Shown here piece by piece: positions 3,025 through 6,400 of a stretch of DNA of 64,000 bases. The DNA comes from Chloroflexota bacterium. Lineage in GTDB: Bacteria; Chloroflexota; Dehalococcoidia; Bin125. Each line of letters opens with the position of its first letter. The first letter of the stretch is position 1. The stretch is from contig VXQZ01000050.1 in the NCBI GenBank assembly GCA_009838735.1, positions 1-64,000 on the forward strand, given 5' to 3'. The translations under genes were made by a program, and so were the position numbers. The notes under the pieces are model-generated. The model was given only the letters and a program-made list of their open reading frames with translations, was not told the DNA's origin and did not search any database.

Positions 3025-6400
<3,376 letters not shown>

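Follow-up and report, generated by a model that had tools for sequence, protein, structure and literature searches.

What becomes of an essential enzyme when the first and third positions of its active-site signature change places? The question is raised by an isoleucyl-tRNA synthetase gene (ileS) in a bacterium of the class Dehalococcoidia (Chloroflexota), in a stretch of 64,000 nucleotides of contig VXQZ01000050.1 that is called the window here. Very probably this gene encodes the housekeeping and sole isoleucyl-tRNA synthetase (IleRS) of its genome, a type-2 enzyme (IleRS2) with positions one and three of the HxGH motif exchanged, predicted to be active and very poorly inhibited by mupirocin. 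The two features on which the argument turns are:

3025..6417, reverse strand: ileS, predicted type-2 isoleucyl-tRNA synthetase (IleRS2), 1130 aa; based on TIGR00392, domains and best PDB match
6163..6174, reverse strand: GVHH, swapped class I HxGH signature; based on direct reading, alignment to 8c8u/8c8w and invariance in the genus

A type-2 synthetase with an exchanged signature

The ileS open frame runs for 1219 codons without a stop, longer than the 1130-aa gene counted from the likely ATG, and the probable start codon is the ATG at 6417. Against TIGR00392 (ileS) the protein reaches 866 bits, the curated cut-off being 621, and its domain matches are tRNA-synt_1, Anticodon_1 and DUF5915; a class I catalytic core, an anticodon-binding domain and KMSKS are all present. 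Its best PDB match is the IleRS2 of P. megaterium (PmIleRS2; 8c8w, E 1e-269); the PmIleRS2 structures 8c8u and 8c8w, the closest solved ones, align over residues 35-1098 of the window protein. As for its surroundings, the end of a 106-aa ORF (6401-6721, reverse strand) that has no Pfam match overlaps the ileS start and is possibly co-translated with ileS, and a BrkB-family (YihY-like) membrane protein (1860-3017, forward strand) is convergent with ileS, their ends lying a few bases apart. The only tRNA gene in the window specifies a selenocysteine tRNA (48179-48276, reverse strand; ARAGORN and Rfam RF01852, 68 bits), and inspection by eye of the longer ORFs in the 10 kb around it turned up no selA/selB/selD-like gene.

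A preliminary description of this DNA had reported a swapped signature, P-GVHH, in an otherwise intact synthetase. Read on the reverse strand, positions 6174..6163 give GGC GTA CAC CAC, that is G-V-H-H, and these residues align exactly on the HVGH of PmIleRS2 8c8u (..LPHVGHAL..), with no HxGH elsewhere in that alignment that could take the place of the signature. The IleRS2 sequence of 8c8w has GVHH at the motif columns, as the window protein does, and 8c8u has HVGH there; because the two share these columns, GVHH is beyond doubt the signature motif itself. The remainder of the description of the protein also holds, as the frame is open over its full length and KMSKS is intact (AGEKMSKSKGN). 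Across the genus, the GVHH residues are invariant in all 15 species searched while their codons vary (GGA/C/G/T, GTA/C/G, CAC/T and CAC/T, hence four for Gly, three for Val and both for His), and the median dN/dS of ileS in these species is 0.12. The gene is thus intact and under purifying selection, and with fixed residues, varying codons and this dN/dS, sequencing error or chance is excluded as the source of the motif.

Judged by its sequence, the enzyme is an IleRS2 and not an IleRS1. Its C-terminus matches DUF5915 and is unlike the zinc-finger tail of IleRS1, no zinc-finger family of that kind appears in its domain listing, and GVHH conforms to the [G/A]-X-H-H of the GXHH subgroup of IleRS2. 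In a tree of 61 rows, built by a quick search with the motif columns kept in and ValRS as outgroup, it nests deep within GxHH IleRS2 beside its genus, family and class kin, and its named nearest relatives carry the labels Dehalococcoidia or Chloroflexota. The three IleRS1 rows, from E. coli, Fusobacterium and Sinorhizobium, form a separate group with 100% SH-aLRT, and on the IleRS2 side a divergent clade of this class splits off close to the base; the program warned that branches at the ValRS outgroup are long, which leaves the root position unsure.

This type of enzyme has been described before. Brkic et al (2023, Nat Commun 14:5498; PMC10485003) reported IleRS2 enzymes with the GXHH/AXHH swap that remain catalytically active and have a mupirocin Ki in the mM range. 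Of 379 IleRSs surveyed there, 86 carry G/AXHH, every one of them an IleRS2 and none an IleRS1, and the structures account for the tolerance of IleRS2 to the swap (PMC10485003). The enzymes of Deinococcus radiodurans and Streptomyces griseus are likewise type-2, with positions one and three exchanged and KMSKS retained, and the published tree takes in Chloroflexi, the phylum of the window lineage, among IleRS2; Chloroflexi and Planctomycetota are represented there by few sequences in an early branch of IleRS2 (PMC10485003). On each feature that a sequence can address, the window enzyme fits this description. It differs in having Val as X and in coming from an uncharacterised Chloroflexota lineage, whereas the best-studied natural case reads ALHH, and the window genome has the type-2 enzyme alone, whereas wild-type PmIleRS2 carries HVGH and works alongside an IleRS1. 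The finding is correct, and such a swap was already explained in 2023 by Brkic et al.

The motif in Dehalococcoidia and beyond

Is the swap particular to this genome? Of 294 class genomes, 230 match a DNA pattern for GxHH (P-G-x-H-H in its usual setting) and 3 match the corresponding HxGH pattern. Thirty class genomes without the GxHH pattern, namely 29 with neither pattern and one with HxGH (G033), were searched for ileS; in 3 of the 30 the gene was not found, and among the 27 genes recovered 26 carry [G/A]xHH. By kind, 25 of the 27 belong to a second, divergent clade, one is of the usual kind (GIHH) and one is the HYGH gene of G033. The swap is therefore a normal, inherited feature of nearly the whole class, of which the preliminary description was unaware. 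Neither of the natural intermediates, HxHH or GxGH, occurs in the individual ileS sequences that were read at the motif, as distinct from the pattern-scale counts.

In the divergent clade, which stands in for the usual IleRS2 in several families of the class, the motif is GVHH or AVHH and its context is GPITANNPM-GVHH-AWGR... Members of this clade (L151-L175, e.g. L151, L155 and L162) have GPITANN for GPPTANG and D[GCA]QGLW for DTHGLP. An HYGH IleRS (GPPFANGLPHYGHLLTG..) was seen in three class genomes (G033, G068 and G207), all of one family, f15 (L150, L146-L148). HYGH in these three against the GVHH divergent type in other members of f15 suggests gene replacement.

GxHH IleRS also occur in Anaerolineae, Bacteroidota, Gemmatimonadota, Deinococcota, Caldisericota, Bacillota, Actinomycetota and others, in proportions that carry no meaning, GxHH having been the query that produced the sample. 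An IleRS from Anaerolineae (L052) has HYGH and KLSKS, and in the 61-row tree it groups with GxHH Anaerolineales enzymes (98%). Among 41 genomes of its relatives, the HxGH pattern is found in 6, GxHH in 9 and neither in the remaining 26, and other Chloroflexota are therefore mixed. L052 could be a reversion of the swap, as far as thin and biased sampling can suggest. For the history of the motif, Brkic et al. inferred no fewer than two gains and one reversion (PMC10485003); the reversion already reported is that of Deinococcus-Thermus.

Our additions to this history are small: GxHH is near-fixed in Dehalococcoidia, it is found there in two distant ileS clades, and other Chloroflexota possibly hold returns to HxGH. 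One might go further, and propose that the swap is the ancestral and near-universal state of the class, present in two deeply separate and mutually replacing ileS clades, that the adjacency of HxGH and GxHH in other Chloroflexota reflects reversions beyond Deinococcus-Thermus, and that mupirocin may matter little; we hold this fuller account only tentatively, as one that is rather doubtful when taken whole.

Reasons for the motif and origin of the gene

What keeps the motif in place? The swap may be a character that the clade inherited and has retained for causes unrelated to mupirocin, for example drift once it had been gained early on, a different inhibitor of IleRS or the tuning of catalysis, in which case resistance would be a by-product. 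Such a reading is compatible with the enzyme mechanism and competes with a resistance explanation only over the reason for the motif. The near-fixation of the swap across the class, in two distant ileS clades, is why we favour it over a recent resistance adaptation, and the locus, with housekeeping neighbours (a proB-like kinase, murJ and rpsT), bears no sign of acquisition. Against it, the link between motif and resistance is published, and in both directions (PMC10485003), and selection is not readable from present data. Overall, we consider an inherited character nearly as probable as not.

That the window copy is instead a degenerate or moonlighting IleRS, with charging left to another IleRS, is very improbable, even though GVHH differs from the consensus signature of class I. 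The preliminary description had proposed looking for a second ileS, and the genome, 96.6% complete, contains one ileS and no second, canonical copy, although the missing ~3% of the assembly could hold one; the picture of a canonical gene beside an inactive one is thus contradicted. The remaining family hits in the genome do not reach the ileS cut-off and correspond to different class I synthetases; the strongest, on contig C11, reads ValRS-like (PPPNVTGVLHLGH). The full-length frame with its intact KMSKS, the dN/dS and the motif's invariance across the 15 species likewise speak against a degenerate copy. We infer that the enzyme is catalytically competent because, as the sole copy, it should be essential, and because it is conserved; the single-copy status indirectly supports the predicted charging of tRNA-Ile.

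Least credible of all is a horizontally acquired resistance gene of the MupA/MupB kind, for although both models cover almost the whole protein, they score 803 and 787 bits, far below the NCBIfam exception cut-offs of 1900 bits, identity to plasmid mupA is ~38%, and in the ileS tree the gene stays with relatives of its own genome at genus, family and class level. The Staphylococcus proteins are type-2 IleRS tied to mupirocin resistance, as the window enzyme would be, but they are plasmid-borne whereas the window ileS is a chromosomal housekeeping gene, for which neither close similarity to MupA/B nor linkage to a mobile element was found. A resistance island or mobile gene at ileS was rejected on account of the housekeeping neighbours.

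Mupirocin and the exchanged histidine

How would the exchange act? In the homologues, the third-position His takes over the role of the first His in transition-state stabilisation and, being bulky, clashes sterically with bound mupirocin; the same would be expected here, leaving the window enzyme active with a mupirocin Ki anywhere from tens of micromolar to millimolar. Exchanging the motif in both directions in three IleRS2 shifted the mupirocin Ki by about 200- to 800-fold at modest catalytic cost (PMC10485003). The natural DrIleRS2 of D. radiodurans (ALHH) has a mupirocin Ki of 6.6 mM, and engineered GVHH enzymes have lower values, 35 and 460 uM (PMC10485003); the size of the effect therefore depends on enzyme context. 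No biochemical work turned up for the window enzyme, nor for its relatives within the class. The association of the type-2 swap with extreme resistance in an active enzyme, given in the preliminary description, stands for the published IleRS2 (PMC10485003), while for the window enzyme we infer hyper-resistance and its structural mechanism by transfer from these characterised homologues.

In conclusion, the window case contributes supporting natural-history data and no new mechanism. Coming from an environmental lineage that is uncharacterised, it confirms that the signature of an essential class I synthetase can be permanently rearranged, and by analogy it suggests that intrinsic mupirocin hyper-resistance through this swap may be the rule in the whole class.
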